Shown here in pieces: positions 34,849-44,855 of a stretch of DNA of 64,000 nucleotides. The notes under the pieces were generated by a model. That model was given only the letters and a program-made list of their open reading frames with translations, searched no databases and had not been told where the DNA came from. The stretch's first letter is position 1, and each line of letters starts with the position of its first letter. The stretch is from Terriglobales bacterium (GTDB taxonomy: Bacteria > Acidobacteriota > Terriglobia > Terriglobales > Acidobacteriaceae). Location: positions 114,501 to 178,500 of the forward strand of contig DATMAB010000026.1 of NCBI GenBank assembly GCA_035573675.1, read 5' to 3'. The position numbers and the translations under genes were made by a program.

Positions 34849-37800
34849 TCAGCGCAGGCCGGCCATTTCTTGCAGCCGGCGCCAGTTCTCCAGCCGGTCC
34901 TGCTGCGCCAGTAAGAGTTGTTCATCGGGCCGGCCCTCGGCGTCGAAATGGCGCGCAAAGCGGCCCTCGGTACGCGCAAAACTTACGAAGTCGCACGGCT
35001 GATTGCTCTTGGGATCCGTGTACCAGTCTTCTTTCATCGCCGGATTCCCGCGCAGGCTCAGGCGCTCGCGGATGCGCTCACCGTTGCGCGGGTCATAGAC
35101 CAGCAGCGGGAAGGCGCGCGATTCCACCGCCATCCGGGCGTGGATCACGGACTGGTCATCCGGCACGCCGTGCTCCGGCTGACAGGTGGAGTACGCAATC
35201 ACGACCGCCGGACCGGGGAACTCGTTGGCGGCCATGACCGCCTTATAGAAATGATTCAGGTGCGCGGGCGTGGTCTGGGCCACGAACACGTTGGGATGCG
35301 CCATCAGTACCTGCGCCAGCTCCTTGCGCCGTTCACGCTTGCCCGGCTGGGCTTTTCCCACCGCCGCCATCTTGGCGTCCTGGCTGGTGAACGTCGCGGT
35401 CGAGGTCTGTCCGCCGGTGTTGGAGTAGACCTGGGTGTCGAGCACCAGCACTTTGATGTCCATGCCGGAAGCCAGCATGCGCGAGAGCGATTGCAGTCCG
35501 ATGTCGAACATGGCGCCGTCGCCACCCACCGTCCACAATCGCCGCTTCTGATGTCCTTCCTGGTCCCAGCGCAGGCGGATGCCCATGGCGTCCGCGGGGG
35601 CGTTCTCGAATAGCGAATTCGTCCACGGCACAGCAAAGGGATTGAACGGGTAAGTGGAGCCGTAGACCGTGTTGCAGCCGGTGGCGGCCACGATGCCGAT
35701 CTGGTCGGCTCCGTACACGAAGCCGGTCGCGGCCAGCATGAGCCGCAGCGCCGTGGCTTCGCCGCATCCCATGCAGGAGCCAGCTCCGCCGGCATAGAGC
35801 AGGGCTCGCGAGGCCAGCATCATGTCGCCCAGCGACTTCTCGTTGAGCAGGTGCGCCGGAGTCTCTGGCAGGGCGTGGTACAGATCCATCGCCAGGTCGT
35901 ACGATTCGAGGGAAAGTTCCTGTTTCGGCGACATGTGCAGTGCGTTGTGCGAGCCGCAGGCCACGACGCACTCGCCGCACCCTTTGCACTTGTCGGGATC
36001 GATGAAAATCGAGAACAGGCCGCCCGGTTCGCCGCGCTTCTGTGGCAGATCGAAATACTTGCTGGTCTGGACGAACCGGGCGCGCAGTTCGTTGCGCAGA
36101 TCCGGGCGCTCCACGCGCGACAGTTTCTCCTCCAGCGCCGACGGCAGCACCGCCTTGGCCAGGATGGCTGTGTCCGGGCACTGGTTCACACATTCCATGC
36201 AGCCCACGCAATTCGCCGCTGTGAGCACAGGGATCTCCGGCGCAAGATTGCGGAAGCTGCGCAGGACAGCGGTTGAAGGCGGCATGAAACTGCGCGCGAC
36301 GTACTCGTCCGCCTCCAGTTCCTGTTCGCGTCCGCGGTTGTAGCCCGCCACTACGCGGTCGCAGAACTCGGGCGCCACTACGTCGGGCGCACCCGGACAG
36401 TGCCACTGCGGGTGATGGACGGAAAGCACGGCTGGGGCGGCGTCTTCGTCTCCCGCGGGGGGCACGACCTCGATCACCTCGTGGTAGCCGCGGCCCGCCG
36501 CTGTCAGATTGTCCTGTACGACTTTCTCGCCTCGCTTGCTGAAGTATTTCTCCAGCGGGCCGCGCAAGGCCGTGAACAGTTGCTCCTCGCTCAATCCGGC
36601 GCGTTGGCGGAAAGGCGTCAGGCGGAGGAACGCTCCCAACAGCACGATACCCTGCATGCGCACCTGCAGATCGGCGCGGCTGGCCGACTCGCGCGCGATG
36701 CGCAACGCGTCCAGCGCATACAGTTTCAGCCCGCGTTCGCGGATCGTGCGCCGTGCCGCCGCCGGCAGCCAGCGCCACACTTCTTCCGGCGGCAGGCTCG
36801 ACTGCACCAGCACTGTCCCGCCCGCCTGCAAGCCCGCCAGCGGGTCCGAGTTCAAGAACGCGTTCTGGTCCTGCAGGGCGACGAACTCCACTGTGTTCAG
36901 TTCGGCGTGCAGCCGGATGGGTTGGTTCGCCAGCGTCAGGAAGTAATTCGTCGGCAGTCCCTTCTTTTCCGAGCCGTACTTGGGGAAGGCTTGCGCATAG
37001 ACGCCGAACAGGTCGGAGGCTACCGAGGCCAGCACCTTGTTCGTGGTCACCGACCCGAAGCCGCCCACCGAGTGCCCGCGCAGCGAGTACGAGCCCGCCG
37101 GACGGACATCCGGATCTTCCGTGGCGTCCAGCGCTTCCGGATGCTTCACACCCAGCACGAAGCGGCGGCGCGTGTCGCCTCCCATCATGGCTTCCACCGT
37201 AGCGACGAAGTGTCCCGGACGGATGTCGCGCCCGCCCAGCCCGGCCACGCCGGAATACACCAGCGGCATCGGCAGCCGGCTGAACTCGCCGTCGCCCATC
37301 TGCGCGTCCGCCAGCGCCGCCTTGATTTCCGCTGTCAGGGGGTTGGATTCAGCCAGCGGAACGTCGGCGCGTTCGATGACGGCGAAGGCGCGACAGGGGA
37401 AGAGCAGCTCGGCCAGCTCGCGCGCCGGGAAGGGACGAAAACTCACCACCGTCACGGCGCCCACGCGCAAACCGCGGCCGCGGAGGAAATCGACCGTGGC
37501 TTCGGCCGTGTCCATCATCGAGCCCATACCCACCAGCGCGTACTCGGCGTCTTCCATGCGGTAAGGTTGCACGAACCCGTACTCGCGCCCCGTCAGCTCG
37601 GAGTACTCGCGCATGGCCGCGGCCAGCGCCGGCGCCACCCGATCGTAGAAGTAGCGTTGCGCTACCTTGCCCTTCATGTAGCTGTCCTGGTTCTGCACCG
37701 GACCGCTGAGCAGCGGATGCCGCGGGTCGAAAAGATTACGCAGGCGCGCTCTCGGCGCGCCCACGAGGTCGCGCATCAGTTCTGGCTCGGGCAGATTCAC

Positions 37801-38406
37801 GGTTTCCAGGGTGTGCGTGGTCAGGAAGCCGTCCTGCACGTTGAGGAAGGGAGTTTCGCTCTCTTCGGCAGTGCGGCGCGCGATCAGCGCCAGGTCGGCG
37901 GCCTCCTGCGCGTTGCGCCCGAACAGCATTCCCCAGCCGCAATCGGCCACGCCCATCACGTCATCGTGCCCGCAGTGCACGTTCAGCGAGTGCGAGGTCA
38001 GCGCCCGGGCCCCGATGTGGAACACCACCGGCAGCCGCTTGCCGGCAATGACGTACAGCACTTCCTTCATCAGGATCAGGCCCTGCCCGGAGGTGAAGTT
38101 GGCCACGCGCCCGCCGGCCAGCGCGAACCCCTCGCAGGCCGTCGCCGAACTGTGCTCCGACTCCGGCTCCAGGAATTGCAGCGCCTCGCCCCACAGGTTT
38201 TTGGTGCCGTTGGCAAACTCCTGCGCGAACCCGTCGCCCATCGGGGTCGAGGGAGTAATGGGATAGGCGCACGCCCCCTGCGCAATGTGAGATTCCACCC
38301 AGACCACGGCGCCCGAACCGTCGGCCGTCGTCCGGATACCCGGATACGGCGGCTCGGCCTTTGGGCATTCCGGTGGCGGTAGGATGACTTCCTTCAGTAG
38401 CGACAT
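34849..38406 (-). CDS. nifJ: Pyruvate:ferredoxin (flavodoxin) oxidoreductase, single-chain
   Basis: PFOR converts pyruvate and CoA to acetyl-CoA and CO2 and reduces ferredoxin; it is typical of anaerobic or microaerobic metabolism. All domains are fused in order: the pyrimidine-binding alpha domain (YPITPSTPMGD), the gamma domain (about 410-640), a two-cluster ferredoxin domain (NCVGCMECVNQCP about 725; KCKGCGECVVACG about 800), and the TPP-binding beta domain (CMGCGEATA about 877; VGGDGAMFDIG about 960; SNTGGQTSTAT about 995). From ATG 38406, preceded by GGAG, it is 1185 aa, the usual NifJ length. Its promoter carries two CRP-type sites. Confidence 0.94.
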   Translation of the reverse strand: MSLLKEVILPPPECPKAEPPYPGIRTTADGSGAVVWVESHIAQGACAYPITPSTPMGDGFAQEFANGTKNLWGEALQFLEPESEHSSATACEGFALAGGRVANFTSGQGLILMKEVLYVIAGKRLPVVFHIGARALTSHSLNVHCGHDDVMGVADCGWGMLFGRNAQEAADLALIARRTAEESETPFLNVQDGFLTTHTLETVNLPEPELMRDLVGAPRARLRNLFDPRHPLLSGPVQNQDSYMKGKVAQRYFYDRVAPALAAAMREYSELTGREYGFVQPYRMEDAEYALVGMGSMMDTAEATVDFLRGRGLRVGAVTVVSFRPFPARELAELLFPCRAFAVIERADVPLAESNPLTAEIKAALADAQMGDGEFSRLPMPLVYSGVAGLGGRDIRPGHFVATVEAMMGGDTRRRFVLGVKHPEALDATEDPDVRPAGSYSLRGHSVGGFGSVTTNKVLASVASDLFGVYAQAFPKYGSEKKGLPTNYFLTLANQPIRLHAELNTVEFVALQDQNAFLNSDPLAGLQAGGTVLVQSSLPPEEVWRWLPAAARRTIRERGLKLYALDALRIARESASRADLQVRMQGIVLLGAFLRLTPFRQRAGLSEEQLFTALRGPLEKYFSKRGEKVVQDNLTAAGRGYHEVIEVVPPAGDEDAAPAVLSVHHPQWHCPGAPDVVAPEFCDRVVAGYNRGREQELEADEYVARSFMPPSTAVLRSFRNLAPEIPVLTAANCVGCMECVNQCPDTAILAKAVLPSALEEKLSRVERPDLRNELRARFVQTSKYFDLPQKRGEPGGLFSIFIDPDKCKGCGECVVACGSHNALHMSPKQELSLESYDLAMDLYHALPETPAHLLNEKSLGDMMLASRALLYAGGAGSCMGCGEATALRLMLAATGFVYGADQIGIVAATGCNTVYGSTYPFNPFAVPWTNSLFENAPADAMGIRLRWDQEGHQKRRLWTVGGDGAMFDIGLQSLSRMLASGMDIKVLVLDTQVYSNTGGQTSTATFTSQDAKMAAVGKAQPGKRERRKELAQVLMAHPNVFVAQTTPAHLNHFYKAVMAANEFPGPAVVIAYSTCQPEHGVPDDQSVIHARMAVESRAFPLLVYDPRNGERIRERLSLRGNPAMKEDWYTDPKSNQPCDFVSFARTEGRFARHFDAEGRPDEQLLLAQQDRLENWRRLQEMAGLR

Positions 38407-38439
38407 GACGTCTCCGATCTCGACCAACTATCAACTTTA

Positions 38440-38505
38440 AGCCTACGGCCCGGGACAGGCAGGACACCGTGACAAGAGTCACATCGGGGTGTGACTCGCG
38501 TTACC
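38440..38505 (-). promoter_or_regulatory. CRP-type tandem operator and -10 for the PFOR-Usp operon
   Basis: Two palindromes, CGTGA-N6-TCACA (38468-38483) and TGTGA-N6-TTACC (38490-38505), have centres exactly 22 bp apart. On the minus strand TAGGCT (38445-38440) starts 30.5 bases from the proximal centre. Transcription would start near 38433, about 27 bases before ATG 38406. Confidence 0.6.
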
Positions 38506-38538
38506 TGTGTGCTTTACCCACGGACTGTCACCCCTGCT

Positions 38539-38581
38539 CGTGACCTCAATCACAGACGCTCACAGCCGCCGGTGGTGCAAT
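38539..38581 (+). promoter_or_regulatory. CRP-type operator and -10 for the Cys-rich membrane protein
   Basis: CGTGA-N6-TCACA lies at 38539-38554 and TGCAAT at 38576-38581, starting 29.5 bases from the palindrome centre. A half-site (TCACC, 38528-38532) is placed where a second site 22 bp upstream would have its right arm. The gene starts at GTG 38606. Confidence 0.6.
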
Positions 38582-38605
38582 GAACCCAGCGACGGGAGGT
38601 GTGCT

Positions 38606-39175
38606 GTGACCCTCGCGAATCTTCTTCTGATCGGCGCGCTCACTCTGGGTGGGCTGCTGGTTCTGTTGCGCCTGGTGCTGGCGATACGCTCGTATCGTCG
38701 CTTCCACGGCAAGATGCTGATTACCTGTCCCGAAAGCCGCACGCCCGAAGCGGTGGATGTCGAGGCCGGCCGCGCTGCCCTCACTGCCCTGGTCGGTACG
38801 CCGCACCTCCGCCTCAAGGACTGCACCCGCTGGCCGGAACGCGCCGACTGTGGCCAGGACTGCCTCACCCAGATTGCCGATCATCCTCAGGATTGCCTGG
38901 TGCGGAACATCGTGGCCCGCTGGTATGAAGGCAAGGGCTGCGTTTTCTGCGGCAAGTCCATCGCCACCGTCGATTGGCTCAAGCAGCGGCCCGCGCTGCT
39001 CTCCCCCGACCGCCGTACCGTGCAGTGGGACGAGGTGCATCCTGAGCGCCTGCCGGAAGTCTTCGCCACCCACCAGCCGGTGTGCTGGAACTGCCACATT
39101 GCCGAGTCCTTCCGGCGCGAGCACCCCGAGCGCGTCGTGGATCGCCCCCCGCACGACACCACCTACGTGGCCTGA
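38606..39175 (+). CDS. Cys-rich membrane-anchored hypothetical protein, about 189 aa
   Basis: No family recognised. From GTG 38606 (GGGAGG at 38594-38599) the protein starts with one membrane helix (LANLLLIGALTLGGLLVLLRLVL) and a basic stop-transfer region. The soluble part has about ten cysteines in small groups (ITCPES; DCTRWPERADCGQDCL; GCVFCGKS; PVCWNCHIAE). The last group is a CxxCH, the haem-c attachment motif, but the CxxC pairs could instead bind zinc or an Fe-S cluster. It has its own CRP-type promoter and sits between PFOR and the Mo operon, so a redox role is likely (inference). Confidence 0.65.
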   Translation: MTLANLLLIGALTLGGLLVLLRLVLAIRSYRRFHGKMLITCPESRTPEAVDVEAGRAALTALVGTPHLRLKDCTRWPERADCGQDCLTQIADHPQDCLVRNIVARWYEGKGCVFCGKSIATVDWLKQRPALLSPDRRTVQWDEVHPERLPEVFATHQPVCWNCHIAESFRREHPERVVDRPPHDTTYVA

Positions 39176-39195: not shown

Positions 39196-39238
39196 GGTGA
39201 CATCAGTCACAGCCTGCTGCGACGCGCGCGCTTATAAA
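39196..39238 (+). promoter_or_regulatory. CRP-type operator and TATAAA -10 for the Mo oxidoreductase operon
   Basis: GGTGA-N6-TCACA lies at 39196-39211 and a near-consensus -10 TATAAA at 39233-39238, starting 29.5 bases from the palindrome centre. A half-site TCACA (39185-39189) is at the position of the right arm of a site 22 bp further upstream. The first gene starts at ATG 39341, leaving a leader of about 95 bases. Confidence 0.7.
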
Positions 39239-39340: not shown

Positions 39341-41878
39341 ATGGCGACTGCGGCTTCTGCATATCAGGGCAAGTGGGTTCCCAGCACCTGCGGCATGTGC
39401 CTGCACGGATGCGGCATCAAGGTGCTGGTGAAGGACGGCGTGGCGCTCAAGATCGAGGGCGACCCCACCAATCCCGACAACCTGGGCAAGCTGTGCCCCA
39501 AGGGCAACGCCGGTCTGGCGCGCCTCTACGACGCCACCCGCATCCTGCATCCCATGAAGCGCACCAATCCCCGGAAAGGCCCGGGCGAGGATCCCGGCTG
39601 GATCAAGATCTCCTGGGAAGAAGCCTTCGAGATCACCGCCCGCGAGCTGGGCAAGATCCGCGCCGACGACCCGCGCAAGCTGCTCTGCGCCATCGGGGAC
39701 TTCCAGCGCATCGTGCTCTGGGGATGGCCGGCGGTGTTCGGCTCGCCGAATTTCTTTACTTCCCTGGGCAATTACTGTGGCGGTTCCTACCACCCGGTGA
39801 ACGGATCCGTGGATGGTTCCTTCGCCGCCATCAACGACTACGAGCGCTGCAATTACTGGATCCAGATCGGCTCCGGCGACGGCTTTTCCTCGCACCTGCA
39901 CGTTTCCGGCAGTTCCAAGCGCATGGCCGATGCCCGCATGCGCGGCATGAAGCTGGTCGTTCTCGACCCGCGATGCTCGGTAGCCGCCGCCAAGGCTGAC
40001 GAATGGATTCCGATTCTGCCGGGCACCGACCGCGCCTTCGTGCTGGGTATGGCCCACGTGCTGGTGCACGAACTGAACCGCTTCGACCGCGAGTTCCTGC
40101 GCGACCGCACCAATGCTCCCTATCTCGTCCAGGATGATGGGCACTTCTTCCGCGGCGAGGACGGCAAGGCCCAGGTGTGGGACACCCGCACCGGCGCCCC
40201 GGCCGCTTGGGACGCCGTCCCGCCGGAGGCCATGGCGCTCGAAGGCGTGTTCCTGGTGGACGGCCGGCGGCTCCGTACTGGTTTCCAGCTCTGGAAAAAC
40301 GTGCTGGTGAACTGCACGCCCGAGCGCATGAGCGAGGTCACTACCGTGCCCGCGGCCACGATCCGTCGCATCGCCCGCGAGTTCGTGGACGCGGCTCAGA
40401 TCGGCGCCACCATCGAGATCGAAGGCAAGACCTATCCTTTCCGCCCGGCGGCGCTCAATTACTACCGCGGCTCGCAATCGCACGCCAACGGCCTTTTCGA
40501 CAACCTGACCTACAAGCTGTTCAACATGCTGGTGGGCAATCTCGATGTGCCCGGCGGCCACCTGGGCGTGCCGCTCGACCATCGTGGCTTCTTCGTCAGT
40601 CCGGGGGAGGACGGCATGCTCAAGCCGGAGCCGCACCAGCTCCACCCGGCGCCGCCCTTCAAGTATCCCCCGGATTCCACCCACCTGATGGAATGGTTTC
40701 CCATCGGCTTCGACGCCGGCCAGCTCAACACCGAGACTCTGCTCGAGCCCGAACGTTTCGGCCTGCAGTACCGGCCCGAGGCCATGCTGCTCTACCACTC
40801 CAACCCGCTGTGGAACATGCCCGAGACGGACAAGGTGGAGCGCATCATGCGCCGCATGAAGTTCGTGGTCGCCATCGACATCCACCGCACGGAATCCACC
40901 GAGTGGGCCGACGTCTTCCTGCCCGACCAGACGTTCCTGGAGTCCACACTGCTGAATTGCCTGGAGCCGCCCGTGGTTACCGGGCACTCCGTGCGCCAGC
41001 CGGTGGTTGAGCCGCTGGGCGACACCAAGGACGCCTACGAGATCCTCACCGAACTGGCGGAGCGGCTGGGCTTCCGCGACGATTGGAACGACCTGCTCAA
41101 CGTGGTCTGCGGCTTCACGCAAAAGCCGCAGTACCTGCTCGACCCCGAGAAGCGCTACAGCGTCGAAGAACTGTGGGACCGCTATGCCCGCTCCATCTAC
41201 GGCGACGATCACGGCCTGGAATGGTTCAAGCAGAACGGCCACGCTGTCCGTCCGCGCACCGCCGATGAGACCTTCATGCCCTATGGCAATCTGCGCGTGC
41301 CTTTCTACTTCGAGTTCATCCAGCGCACCGGCGAAGATCTGCGCAAGAAAATGGAACAGGCCGGCGTTCAGGATTGGCCGTTCGACAACTACAAGCCGCT
41401 GCCGTTCTGGAAGCCTTCGCCGGTCATCGAGGATGGCGCCCGCGGCTATCCCTTCTACGCCATCACCTTCAAGGAAGTGCTGCACACCTTCGCTGACACG
41501 GTGGTGATGCCCTGGCTCACGGAAATCAGCGAAAAGGACGCGGTGCACGGTGGCATCCTCATCAACTCAAAGACCGCCGCGAAGTTCGGCATCCGCACCG
41601 GCACCCGCATTCGTCTCACGTCACCGGCCGGCTTCATCGAGGGCGTGGCCCAGGTGGTGGAGGGCATCCACCCGCAGGTGCTGGGAGTCAGCAACGCCAT
41701 CACCCGCGAGTTCGTCACCAACCGCGAAGTGCGCGTCAAGGGCAGCCACTTCAACCGGCTGCTCACCGGCTCCATGCGCTACACGGATAACGCCACCGGC
41801 GGCCTGGAATCCACCGCGCGCGTGCGTTTGGAGATCGCCCCGAAATGGGGCCAGGAGGCTCACGATGCCGACGATTGA
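39341..41878 (+). CDS. Molybdopterin (bis-MGD) oxidoreductase, catalytic subunit
   Basis: An 845-aa DMSO-reductase-superfamily enzyme. The N-terminal [4Fe-4S] motif is canonical (Cys17-x2-Cys20-x3-Cys24-x27-Cys52). The likely Mo/W ligand is Cys146 (GNYCGGSYHP), as in the formate dehydrogenase/polysulfide reductase/arsenate reductase branch. The C-terminal cofactor-binding domain has TGTRIRLTSPAG. There is no twin-arginine signal, so the enzyme should stay in the cytoplasm, unlike most Psr/Phs/Ttr-type partners of NrfD. It is followed by MoaD-like, ferredoxin and NrfD genes. The substrate cannot be read from sequence. ATG 39341 has GGAG ten bases upstream; an in-frame GTG at 39260 would add 27 residues without a signal. 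Confidence 0.85.
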   Translation: MATAASAYQGKWVPSTCGMCLHGCGIKVLVKDGVALKIEGDPTNPDNLGKLCPKGNAGLARLYDATRILHPMKRTNPRKGPGEDPGWIKISWEEAFEITARELGKIRADDPRKLLCAIGDFQRIVLWGWPAVFGSPNFFTSLGNYCGGSYHPVNGSVDGSFAAINDYERCNYWIQIGSGDGFSSHLHVSGSSKRMADARMRGMKLVVLDPRCSVAAAKADEWIPILPGTDRAFVLGMAHVLVHELNRFDREFLRDRTNAPYLVQDDGHFFRGEDGKAQVWDTRTGAPAAWDAVPPEAMALEGVFLVDGRRLRTGFQLWKNVLVNCTPERMSEVTTVPAATIRRIAREFVDAAQIGATIEIEGKTYPFRPAALNYYRGSQSHANGLFDNLTYKLFNMLVGNLDVPGGHLGVPLDHRGFFVSPGEDGMLKPEPHQLHPAPPFKYPPDSTHLMEWFPIGFDAGQLNTETLLEPERFGLQYRPEAMLLYHSNPLWNMPETDKVERIMRRMKFVVAIDIHRTESTEWADVFLPDQTFLESTLLNCLEPPVVTGHSVRQPVVEPLGDTKDAYEILTELAERLGFRDDWNDLLNVVCGFTQKPQYLLDPEKRYSVEELWDRYARSIYGDDHGLEWFKQNGHAVRPRTADETFMPYGNLRVPFYFEFIQRTGEDLRKKMEQAGVQDWPFDNYKPLPFWKPSPVIEDGARGYPFYAITFKEVLHTFADTVVMPWLTEISEKDAVHGGILINSKTAAKFGIRTGTRIRLTSPAGFIEGVAQVVEGIHPQVLGVSNAITREFVTNREVRVKGSHFNRLLTGSMRYTDNATGGLESTARVRLEIAPKWGQEAHDADD

Positions 41879-42152
41879 TGTGGCCGCGCTGGGCACGGCG
41901 CGCAAGCTGCTCGGTTTCTCACGGCGCACCGTCCCGTTCGAAGAGGGTACGGTAGCGGATCTGCTGCGCTCGCTCGACACCCTCGACGGCGGCAACCTCT
42001 ACGCCTGCCTCACCTGCGAGGGCCGGCTGCGCGGCGATTTTGCCGTCCTGGTGGACGGCCTCAGTCTCAAACCCGATCAGCTCGACCGTCCCCTCCAGGG
42101 CGGCGAGCAGGTCGTGACCATGGCGATTCTGCGTCATTTGCACGGCGGTTAG
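41865..42152 (+). CDS. MoaD/ThiS-like sulfur-carrier protein
   Basis: A 95-aa ubiquitin-fold protein starting at ATG 41865, inside the end of the oxidoreductase gene (14-base overlap), with GGAGG seven bases upstream. The segments GTVADLLRSL, FAVLVDGLSL and LDRPLQGGEQVVTMAILRHL follow the MoaD pattern, and the protein ends in Gly-Gly, the residues that become a thiocarboxylate. MoaD donates sulfur to make molybdopterin dithiolene. A copy dedicated to this operon suggests local support of cofactor synthesis for the oxidoreductase, or another sulfur-transfer role. Confidence 0.75.
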   Translation: MPTIDVAALGTARKLLGFSRRTVPFEEGTVADLLRSLDTLDGGNLYACLTCEGRLRGDFAVLVDGLSLKPDQLDRPLQGGEQVVTMAILRHLHGG

Positions 42153-42165
42153 CGGGGAGGAACGT

Positions 42166-42780
42166 ATGGCCCGACTGGGAATGGTGATCGACCTCAAACG
42201 CTGTATCGGCTGCAACGCTTGCACCGTGGCCTGCAAGCAGGAGAACGGCACACCCGCCGGAGTCCACTTCGCCCGTGTCATCACCCGCGAAGTGGGCACC
42301 TACCCGCAGACCCGGCGAACCTTCCTGCCCGTGCTCTGCAATCACTGCGACGACGCCCCCTGCGCCCAGGTCTGTCCCAGCGGCGCTACGCATATCCGCG
42401 CGGACGGAATCGTCATGGTGGACAAGGACGTCTGCATCGGCTGCCGCGCCTGCGCCGTAGCCTGCCCCTACATGAACCGCCACTACATCGAGCGCGGCCT
42501 GCTCGCCCACGGCTACAGCGGGGATGGGGTCAGCCCGCTGGAGGCGGTGAAGTTTACCCAGTTCGAAGAGGGCACCATGACCAAGTGCACGTTCTGTGCC
42601 CACCGCGTGGATCAGGGTCTGGAGCCGGCCTGTGTGGTTACCTGCCCGACCGAGGCGCGCATCTTTGGCGACCTCGACCAGAAAGACGGACGCCTGCGGC
42701 GGTTGATCCGCGAGCGTAACGGCTGGACGCTCCTGCCCGAAGCCGAAACCAAGCCCAGCGTGTACTACCTGGACGAATAG
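42166..42780 (+). CDS. Four-cluster [4Fe-4S] ferredoxin subunit (DmsB/PsrB/NrfC type)
   Basis: A 204-aa electron-transfer subunit with four cysteine groups: RCIGCNACTVACKQ, LCNHCDDAPCAQVCP, VCIGCRACAVACP and CTFCAHR then CVVTCP. They would hold four cubane clusters carrying electrons between the Mo subunit and NrfD. There is no signal peptide, in line with the catalytic subunit. It follows the MoaD-like gene by 13 bases with a GGGGAGG ribosome site. Confidence 0.92.
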   Translation: MARLGMVIDLKRCIGCNACTVACKQENGTPAGVHFARVITREVGTYPQTRRTFLPVLCNHCDDAPCAQVCPSGATHIRADGIVMVDKDVCIGCRACAVACPYMNRHYIERGLLAHGYSGDGVSPLEAVKFTQFEEGTMTKCTFCAHRVDQGLEPACVVTCPTEARIFGDLDQKDGRLRRLIRERNGWTLLPEAETKPSVYYLDE

Positions 42781-42792
42781 AGTGAGGGAACC

Positions 42793-43701
42793 ATGAGCGC
42801 GCAATCTTCCATCGCCATCGCGCCGCACCGCTTCGCTTACGGCTACTACCGTCAGAGCTGGTGGAACTGGCTGATCGGCACTGCCTTTTTCTTCGGCGAG
42901 ATCGGCGCCGGCCTCTTCCTGGTTTCTCTGCTCACCGGGCCTGCGCTCGGCATGCTGGTGGGCTACCTCATCGTCATGGCGGGCAAGAACACCGCCCACC
43001 TCATGTACCTTGGCCGGCCCGCCCGCTTCTGGCGCGCCGCCATGCGGCCGGACCGCTCCTGGATCGCGCGCGGCATCTGGGCCACCGGCATCTTCGGCGC
43101 GAGCGGAGCCCTTCTGCTGCTGCCGCAGTTTTTCCCGCTCCCGTGGCAGCCGCAAGGAGCGACCGCTTCCGCCGTGACGTGGTTGGCCGGTCTCTCCGCC
43201 CTCTTCATCATGTTTTACGACGGCTTCGTCATGAACTCGTCCCGCGCTATCCCGTTCTGGAACACCGGCATGCTCCCACTGCTGTGCCTTACCTATGCCG
43301 CACTGGGCGGAACTACTCTTTCTCTCACCCTGCGCGAACTCACCGGCCTCGGCGAGGCGGCGCCCTCGCTTCTCGTCCAGGTCGAATACATCCTGCTGGT
43401 CACCAACTTCGTGCTGCTGGCCATGTACCTGGCGCACATGTGGGACTGGTCTCCGGCCGCCCGCGAAACGGTGCGCATGCTGGTGGTCGGGCGCTATGCC
43501 CGCTTCTTCCTTGGCCTGGTGCTGGCCGTAGGACTGGTGGCCACTCTCCTGCTGGCCGTTGTGCACAGCCGCATGCACGCCACCTGGCTGGCCATCCTCA
43601 TCGCCGCCTGCGAGCTTACCGGCGACTTCGCGCTGCTCATGGTGTTGCTGAAATCGGGCTTGTTTTCTCCGCAGACCGCTCCTGCATTCCGCAGCTCCTG
43701 A
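42793..43701 (+). CDS. NrfD/PsrC-type membrane subunit
   Basis: A 302-aa integral membrane protein with about eight helices. NrfD-family proteins oxidise or reduce quinone in the membrane and pass electrons to the ferredoxin subunit. Visible marks are GAGLFLVSLLTGPALGM, GKNTAHLMYLGRPARFW (the loop with Lys, His and GRP-RFW is typical), and MNSSRAIPFWN. With the previous genes it completes a three-subunit CISM-type complex. It starts 12 bases after the ferredoxin gene. Confidence 0.88.
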   Translation: MSAQSSIAIAPHRFAYGYYRQSWWNWLIGTAFFFGEIGAGLFLVSLLTGPALGMLVGYLIVMAGKNTAHLMYLGRPARFWRAAMRPDRSWIARGIWATGIFGASGALLLLPQFFPLPWQPQGATASAVTWLAGLSALFIMFYDGFVMNSSRAIPFWNTGMLPLLCLTYAALGGTTLSLTLRELTGLGEAAPSLLVQVEYILLVTNFVLLAMYLAHMWDWSPAARETVRMLVVGRYARFFLGLVLAVGLVATLLLAVVHSRMHATWLAILIAACELTGDFALLMVLLKSGLFSPQTAPAFRSS

Positions 43702-43778
43702 ACCGCGGCTGTTTCCCGGACTTCGCCTGTGGTAAGGTGCGCGCCACGGGTGTGATTCCCCGGGAAAGGAACACGGCC

Positions 43779-44090
43779 ATGCTGCCCTCGCAGTTCGAGC
43801 AATTGAAGAAGGACTACCCCGAGGTCTGGAAGGCATTCACCGAGCTGGGCGACCGTTGCCACCACGCCGGACCCCTGGACGACAAGACGCGCCGTCTCAT
43901 CAAGCTGGCGCTGGCCGTCGGCGGCGGCCTGGAAGGTGCGGCGCATTCGGCCGTGCGCAACGCCCTGGCTGCCGGCATCCAGCCCGAGGAGCTCCGCCAG
44001 GTGGCTCTGCTGGCGGTCACCACGCTCGGCTTCCCGGCCGCCATGCGTGCGCTCACCTGGATCGCCGACCAGACGCAAAACCAGGGCTGA
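43779..44090 (+). CDS. Carboxymuconolactone decarboxylase/AhpD-family protein, 103 aa
   Basis: A small all-helical protein from ATG 43779 (GGAAAGGA upstream). The core DKTRRLIKLALAVGGGLEG then SAVRNALAAGIQPEELRQVALLA matches the CMD fold. The CxxC of peroxidase-active AhpD proteins is absent (GLEGAAHSAV instead), so thiol peroxidase activity is unlikely. Its role in the operon is not known. It is 77 bases after nrfD and 51 bases before the Crp/Fnr gene. Confidence 0.8.
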   Translation: MLPSQFEQLKKDYPEVWKAFTELGDRCHHAGPLDDKTRRLIKLALAVGGGLEGAAHSAVRNALAAGIQPEELRQVALLAVTTLGFPAAMRALTWIADQTQNQG

Positions 44091-44141: not shown

Positions 44142-44855
44142 ATGCGGACTCCCTACGGCCTGCAGATCCTGGACAGTTGCCTCACCTGTGAGCTCAGGGA
44201 GAAGCGCCTTTTTTGCAATCTTTCTCCTACCGCCGTCAGGGACCTGGAAGCCATCCGCTCCACCGCTTCGTATCCCGCGGGCGCCGTGTTGTATGTGGAA
44301 GGCCAGAACCCGCGCGGGGTGTTTATCCTGTGCCAGGGGCGGGCCAAGCTCACCGCCTCTTCGGCCGAGGGCAAGACGCTCATCCTGAAGATTGTGGAGC
44401 CGGGTGAAGTGCTGGGGCTGAGCAGCACCGTCTCCGGCAAGCCCTACGAGGCCACCGTCGAGTTGCTCGAGCCCACCCAGGTCAACTTCATCCGCCGCGA
44501 CGAGTTCCTCAACTTCCTGCGCCGCCACGGCGATGCCGCCTTGCGCGTCGCCCAGCAGCTCAGCCAGAACTATCACACCGCCTACCAGGAGATCCGCACG
44601 CTGGGCCTGTCGCAGTCCGCCTCGGAGAAGCTGGCCCGCCTGTTGCTGGAGTGGTCGGCCAACGACAACTCCGGCCGCGGCCTGAAACTGAAGCTCACGC
44701 TCACCCACGAAGAGATCGCGCAGATGATCGGCACCTCACGCGAGACCGTGACCCGCGCTTTCGCCGACCTCAGAAAACGCCGCTTTATCGAAGTCCGCGG
44801 CGCCACGGTCACCATCCGCGACCGCACCGCGCTCGAAAGCCTGGTCGGCGCTTAA
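44142..44855 (+). CDS. Crp/Fnr-family transcription regulator with four cysteines
   Basis: A 237-aa dimeric activator. Residues about 35-150 are the cNMP-binding-type sensor domain (YPAGAVLYVEGQNPRGVF). Residues about 165-230 carry the winged helix (HEEIAQMIGTSRETVTRAF). The recognition helix has Arg200, Glu201 and Arg205 in the same spacing as E. coli CRP Arg180, Glu181 and Arg185, which read TGTGA. The only four cysteines are Cys13, Cys16, Cys25 and Cys64, a CxxC...C...C set that could hold an Fe-S cluster as in FNR (inference). It is the best candidate for the regulator of the TGTGA-N6-TCACA sites around it. No clear site is seen at its own start, so it may be read through from the Mo operon. 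Confidence 0.88.
   Translation: MRTPYGLQILDSCLTCELREKRLFCNLSPTAVRDLEAIRSTASYPAGAVLYVEGQNPRGVFILCQGRAKLTASSAEGKTLILKIVEPGEVLGLSSTVSGKPYEATVELLEPTQVNFIRRDEFLNFLRRHGDAALRVAQQLSQNYHTAYQEIRTLGLSQSASEKLARLLLEWSANDNSGRGLKLKLTLTHEEIAQMIGTSRETVTRAFADLRKRRFIEVRGATVTIRDRTALESLVGA

Follow-up and report, generated by a model that had tools for sequence, protein, structure and literature searches.

Background

The PadBCD complex (phenylacetyl-coenzyme A (CoA):acceptor oxidoreductase) of Thauera and Aromatoleum is a membrane-bound molybdenum (Mo)-iron-sulfur enzyme that acts on a CoA thioester, being described as converting phenylacetyl-CoA to phenylglyoxylate (PMC5109826). Within the broader class of complex iron-sulfur molybdoenzymes (CISM), SoeABC, which has an NrfD-like anchor, is described with SoeAB on the N side of the membrane (PMC8076601), and bSreA is given as cytoplasmic (PMC10100899, Table 1). 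Here we analyse a four-gene operon at positions 39341-43701 of a 64,000-nucleotide stretch (the window) of a Terriglobales genome, which encodes a molybdenum or tungsten (Mo/W) enzyme whose nearest labelled branch is that of PadBCD-context relatives and which includes a gene for a MoaD-like sulfur carrier.

FdhD sulfurates the cofactors of formate dehydrogenases. Its sulfur is described as being taken from IscS (PMC10609526). MoaD-type carriers are described as using a C-terminal thiocarboxylate, and dedicated MoaD genes linked to aldehyde ferredoxin oxidoreductase (AOR) enzymes have been reported (PMC1779556). Among the open-licence papers found in a literature search, mostly judged by abstract, none visibly dealt with an NrfD-type MopB operon that contains a MoaD-like gene.

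With a probability of about one half, we read the window operon as encoding a PadBCD-type, cytoplasm-facing and quinone-reducing CISM enzyme, together with a sulfur carrier dedicated to its cofactor. The catalytic subunit would oxidise an organic compound on the cytoplasmic side, with an activated acid, for example a CoA thioester, as the likeliest substrate; the four iron-sulfur clusters of the second subunit would pass the electrons to the NrfD subunit, and the latter would reduce quinone at the inner membrane face. The MoaD-like protein, made together with the enzyme, would be a dedicated thiocarboxylate carrier whose sulfur goes to this enzyme's cofactor. It would act either when the pterin dithiolene is synthesised or in a late sulfuration, a step that FdhD carries out in other lineages. 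If this is true, PadBCD-like chemistry extends to the Acidobacteriota, and an operon-bound sulfur carrier, possibly alternating with FdhD, hints at an undescribed way of finishing a metal cofactor.

Results and discussion

Operon layout and conservation

The source genome (G000) is 3.16 Mb in size and 99.11% complete, and the four genes follow one another on its forward strand. The first (39341..41878) encodes an 845-aa catalytic subunit for a Mo/W bis-pyranopterin guanine dinucleotide (bis-PGD) cofactor, with N-terminal 4Fe-4S cysteines C17, C20, C24 and C52, a predicted metal ligand C146, an invariant H151 and no twin-arginine translocation (Tat) signal; its start at 39341 is the same in the same-genus relative G299. 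The second (41865..42152), overlapping the first by 14 bases, encodes a 95-aa MoaD-like beta-grasp protein ending in HLHGG-stop. The third (42166..42780) encodes a 204-aa ferredoxin subunit with 16 cysteines in four 4-Cys motifs, corresponding to four predicted 4Fe-4S clusters, and the fourth (42793..43701) a 302-aa NrfD/PsrC-like membrane subunit, for which eight transmembrane helices are expected from its relatives, with the N-terminus inside. Pfam cut-offs were exceeded by Molybdopterin, Molybdop_Fe4S4 and Molydop_binding in the catalytic subunit, and by NrfD and DmsC in the membrane subunit. The original prediction, made from the letters of the window, had named the three CISM subunits and the overlapping Gly-Gly protein between the first two genes; gene calls, domain matches, cluster motifs and the predicted fold described below all agree with it.

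A contig scan returned ten close loci from acidobacterial metagenome-assembled genomes (79-82% identity by best segment) and two remote matches (L030, L031). Together with G299, which carries the whole set (catalytic protein 95%, MoaD-like protein 92% identity), there are 11 close relatives with identities of 78-95%. The order catalytic-MoaD-ferredoxin-NrfD is kept in nine of the ten loci and in G299, that is, in 10/11 close relatives, so the arrangement is not due to chance, and the proposal of a dedicated MoaD-like gene stands. The 14-base overlap is found in the window and G299 only, the spacing in nine other loci being -1 to +31 bases.

Using a threshold of E <= 1e-60, catalytic homologues were found in 15 of 297 genomes of the phylum: the window's own, G148 (with the same match as the close locus L029), and 13 that form a wide clade, with catalytic proteins 34-42% identical to that of the window. 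Among these 13, an operon-linked MoaD-like gene occurs only in G131 (42% identity), where it immediately precedes the catalytic gene, stops a few bases short of its start and encodes a protein that again ends in Gly-Gly. A profile search of the stretches collected up to that point revealed an operon-linked MoaD-like gene nowhere else. The occurrence of this gene in two different gene orders argues for a functional bond with the enzyme.

Phylogeny of the catalytic subunit

The metal-site residues C146 and H151 are invariant in 17/17 aligned sequences, and C146 lines up with a cysteine in both ArrA and PsrA, the metal ligand of those enzymes. In a comparison of the catalytic profile with the PDB, ArrA and PsrA were closest and acetylene hydratase next; an AlphaFold model of the subunit had a mean predicted local distance difference test score (pLDDT) of 39.1 and was not used. 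Trees covered eight of the 13 wide-clade genomes, with L044, L046 and L047 in neither the catalytic alignment nor the trees, and L049 (G010) excluded from alignments because of a run of N inside its catalytic frame. For a second, careful tree, 8/32 rows were dropped (four outgroup, four close).

In the careful tree, the window clade and the wide acidobacterial clade group together (96/95) and are joined by a pair of loci in Pad-like gene context, L121 and L122, and a Sporomusa plasmid homologue (97/96). A placement of the catalytic subunit on the Cys-ligated branch, grouping with PadBCD-context enzymes, is thus supported by sequence comparison. Catalytic phylogeny had been put forward as a check of the original prediction, and it gave no clustering with SoeA, ArrA or PhsA.

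The Pad-context loci came from 398 genomes of a different phylum, in which a profile search gave three full-length matches (G604, G525 and G566). At the cut-off used, the alignments of the remaining matches are confined to roughly the first 600 columns, and their open frames are 943-1106 aa long; several of the partial-match loci inspected have an adjoining ferredoxin gene, and one has an NrfD gene. By architecture only, these proteins were taken as SoeABC, and they bear on the possibility that the window operon encodes a SoeABC-type oxidoreductase for sulfite or sulfur compounds. The two systems share cytoplasmic catalytic and iron-sulfur subunits, an NrfD-like anchor and the lack of a Tat signal, and PhsA is the best NCBIfam match of the window protein, though far below the cut-off. 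We nevertheless consider this reading improbable: the SoeA-like rows form a clade of their own (100/100), a forced clade with them was rejected (p = 0.007 in the approximately unbiased (AU) test), their alignment to the 857-column profile covers only about columns 5-601, the SoeA-like catalytic subunit is longer (~945-1000 aa), and no MoaD-like gene was seen at these loci.

Other identities were set aside as well, that of SoeA itself on the same separate clade and p-AU value, with its rows labelled by architecture only. ArrA, grouped with a second G604 protein (100/99), has a separate position in the tree, and an ArrA/ArxA identity is also at odds with the missing Tat signal. For PsrA/PhsA, the window protein reaches 265.7 of the 694 bits of the PhsA NCBIfam cut-off and again has no Tat signal. 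An adjacent Sec/Cys-His pair at the metal is the hallmark of formate dehydrogenases; C146 and H151 are five apart, and the score is 157 of 666 bits (Fdh-alpha cut-off).

Membrane side

An RR motif is absent from the first 60 residues of the window protein and of seven close and eight wide-clade sequences, and is present in 9/9 sequences of Tat-type enzymes or their homologues. The NrfD proteins of the branch have eight helices, and their positively charged loops face the N-terminal side, the charge ratios being 18:3 (L021), 14:2 (L038), 15:4 (L040), 15:2 (L043) and 26:1 (L121). In the P-side types, namely L036, whose partner has a Tat signal, and the ActC-like L002 and L003, an extra helix precedes the core, so that the core is turned over. 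The inverted core agrees with what is proposed for SoeC (PMC8076601). The simple helix caller used found only seven helices in the window NrfD and six in L028, so their ratios of 4:14 and 10:5 are not usable, and the Sporomusa protein (8:9) indicates no side.

Taken together, signal and charge patterns support a complex that faces the cytoplasm, as originally predicted, and the absence of a signal extends to the orthologues scanned. The further claim that such a placement is unusual for the class does not hold, given the N-side SoeAB and cytoplasmic bSreA described in the sources cited above.

Pad context and substrate class

In G525 (L121), genes for a PaaK-type phenylacetate-CoA ligase and PaaX follow on from those for the catalytic, ferredoxin and NrfD subunits, and on the other side lie FdhD and 2-oxoacid oxidoreductase genes; NCBIfam cut-offs were exceeded for PaaK ligase, PaaX, FdhD (TIGR00129) and IOR alpha. 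In G566 (L122) the iron-sulfur and NrfD parts are fused in one gene, and the PaaK-like ligase reaches 619 of 646 bits, below the cut-off. A search for the PadI family gave none over the cut-off in the 398 genomes, and hence no labelled Pad cluster by that route. In the wide clade, a CoA-transferase III gene adjoins the operon in eight of 12 long stretches, and the neighbours also include acyl-CoA ligase, thiolase and short-chain dehydrogenase/reductase genes. With the Pad-context relatives and the known PadBCD chemistry, these genes make a cytoplasmic substrate of the CoA-thioester type our best guess.

Several points weigh against the PadBCD-type reading. The substrate class rests on a sister clade and on Pad-context cousins at ~30% identity, and the Pad label of L121 and L122 comes from gene context, in a comparison without a characterised PadB sequence. 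The genes that recur beside the window's own clade, in the close loci, include none that handle CoA, being those for an Rrf2 regulator (three loci, two Pfam-checked), a luciferase-like protein (three loci, one checked) and unrelated proteins. The window operon also differs from PadBCD in its MoaD-like gene and in having no phenylacetate genes nearby. The best tree does not hold close, wide and Pad sequences together to the exclusion of the Sporomusa row, although such a clade is not rejected (p-AU 0.09). The G604 protein, which joins just outside the Pad-like branch (93/92), is a Tat protein, which means that localisation has changed within the wider branch. One close relative, L025, lacks the operon MoaD-like gene, and a reductase direction is also possible.

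Two side observations belong here. L120, the G604 locus, has two MopB catalytic genes a short distance apart, both of which encode a Tat signal; one product falls just outside the PadB-like branch, the other near ArrA. G604 also has a NarJ-like chaperone gene. At 6422-7387 of L043, and in homologues in L044, L047 and L048, a 321-aa protein without a Pfam match is encoded between the CoA-transferase and catalytic genes.

The MoaD-like sulfur carrier

The MoaD-like protein scores 20.3 bits against Pfam ThiS, under the 22.5 cut-off, and a PDB sequence search with it returned nothing useful. Its predicted structure (mean pLDDT 88.7, confident but for a flexible C-terminal tail) is of the MoaD/Urm1/SAMP/CysO type, with Z scores of 11.1 to SAMP1 (4hro) and 9.7 to MoaD (1fm0). 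The Gly-Gly end is present in 9/10 operon MoaD-like sequences, the tenth (L020) ending one codon short in the alignment. Cys51 is invariant in 10/10 of the operon sequences and is not found in G131.

In a tree of 23 carriers, nine operon proteins form one clade (99/99) apart from MoaE-linked MoaD, ThiS and E1/JAB-linked carriers, and a grouping with the MoaE-partner MoaD, the small subunit of molybdopterin (MPT) synthase, was rejected on this ground. The clade is joined by the G131 protein and by a MoaD-like protein of G120 (85/87), whose gene adjoins an AOR gene.

The last grouping bears on the possibility that the operon encodes an additional MPT synthase small subunit whose pterin serves a tungsten cofactor, a role that has been proposed for AOR-linked MoaD (PMC1779556). 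In both cases the MoaD gene is tied to one Mo/W enzyme and not to a cofactor operon, and since G299, G297 and G148 have MoaE, in G297 with a MoaD-MoaE fusion, the operon MoaD would be an extra copy. The partner here is a MopB/CISM enzyme, however, not AOR, the operon has no MoaE, MoeB or other cofactor gene, neither G000 nor G120 gave a MoaE match, and the grouping is moderately supported, resting on one AOR-linked sequence. We regard a second MPT synthase subunit as possible, if somewhat unlikely.

As a separate observation, MoaE (PF02391) was present in 36/41 genomes of a relatives search, the same genus included, and its lack of a match in the 99% complete G000 could be an assembly gap or a real loss.

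The distribution of FdhD (PF02634), searched in 13 genomes, raises the possibility that the MoaD-like protein replaces it in bringing a terminal sulfido ligand to the bis-PGD metal of the window enzyme. FdhD was present in G297, G253, G041, G090, G525 and G566, and absent from G000, G299, G148, G131, G120, G101 and G274. It was thus missing from all four tested genomes with an operon MoaD (G000, G299, G148, G131), whereas it occurs in G297, to which L025 belongs and which gave no match to the MoaD-like query P0002. In G090 and G069 it is found close to the related operons, and in G525 it belongs to the Pad cluster. Against this, the wide-clade G120, G101 and G274 have neither FdhD nor an operon MoaD, and FdhD loss may only reflect the lack of a formate dehydrogenase. 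The sample is small and its genomes related, with G299, G148 and G297 the only close relatives searched, and the one-sided Fisher value of 0.049 (13 genomes) becomes 0.106 for the 11 acidobacteria and 0.12 per genus. We therefore keep FdhD replacement as a hypothesis, and a doubtful one.

It is likewise rather unlikely that a ubiquitin-like MoaD protein dedicated to one enzyme takes the place of FdhD and sulfurates the bis-PGD metal through its C-terminal thiocarboxylate. Such a carrier would share with FdhD, should replacement be right, the enzyme-dedicated delivery of sulfur to a bis-PGD enzyme, and would differ in its unrelated fold and in using a thiocarboxylate instead of sulfur from IscS. 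If this were true, the sulfido ligand could be put in place by a second, unrelated route, which might account for Mo/W enzymes in organisms that have no FdhD.

Three kinds of genes that handle sulfur or ubiquitin-like proteins adjoin these operons. A Prok-JAB peptidase gene, of a family found with ubiquitin-like carriers, lies near 5/12 wide-clade operons (L040, L042, L044, L047, L048).

Neighbouring genes and regulation

A divergent gene upstream of the operon (34849..38427, reverse strand) encodes a single-chain pyruvate:ferredoxin oxidoreductase (PFOR), and the original prediction had suggested that the complex couples ferredoxin from PFOR to quinone. PFOR adjoins the operon in the window and G299, with GTGA-N6-TCAC palindromes upstream of both; it is next to the operon only in this genus, being missing from the neighbourhood of 10/10 close loci, and the catalytic subunit retains its metal-site residues. 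The Mo site is apparently intact in all members, which makes an enzyme acting on a substrate likelier than a ferredoxin:quinone wire, and we hold a ferredoxin:quinone oxidoreductase fed by PFOR to be very improbable.

The palindrome occurs as GTGACATCAGTCAC at 39197..39210, a candidate Crp/Fnr-type site 130 bases 5' of the catalytic ATG, as GTGACAAGAGTCAC at 38469..38482, between the PFOR gene and 38507, and as GTGACCTCAATCAC at 38540..38553, just inside the 38507 reading frame as called; the latter two have counterparts in G299. In all, the window holds 11 GTGA-N6-TCAC sites (2804, 12910, 27552, 27574, 32964, 38469, 38540, 39197, 44968, 45489 and 45511) vs 0.71 expected, a number reached in 0/100 shuffles, among them sites 5' of the PFOR gene, the operon, and Usp and RIC-type genes. 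Five sites in matching order are found in the G299 stretch, and ten in ~136 kb of the ten close loci, four of these (in L021, L022, L023 and L025) at a distance of 53-120 bases upstream of the catalytic start. FNR boxes (TTGAT-N4-ATCAA) are not enriched (seven found vs 8.0 expected). Two Crp/Fnr-family genes lie downstream of the operon, and the product of one (44142..44855, forward strand), with N-terminal Cys residues, is a candidate regulator of the palindromes. The operon thus seems to be part of a small Crp/Fnr-type regulon, and the common palindromes suggest co-regulation with PFOR, leaving a metabolic link possible.

Directly 3' of the operon lies a gene for a carboxymuconolactone decarboxylase/AhpD-like protein (43767..44090, forward strand), which does not adjoin the operon in the ten close loci, L024 having a homologue upstream. 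Between the PFOR gene and the operon, 38507-39175 encodes a 222-aa protein with a hydrophobic N-terminal stretch, several cysteines and no Pfam match, which is kept in G299.

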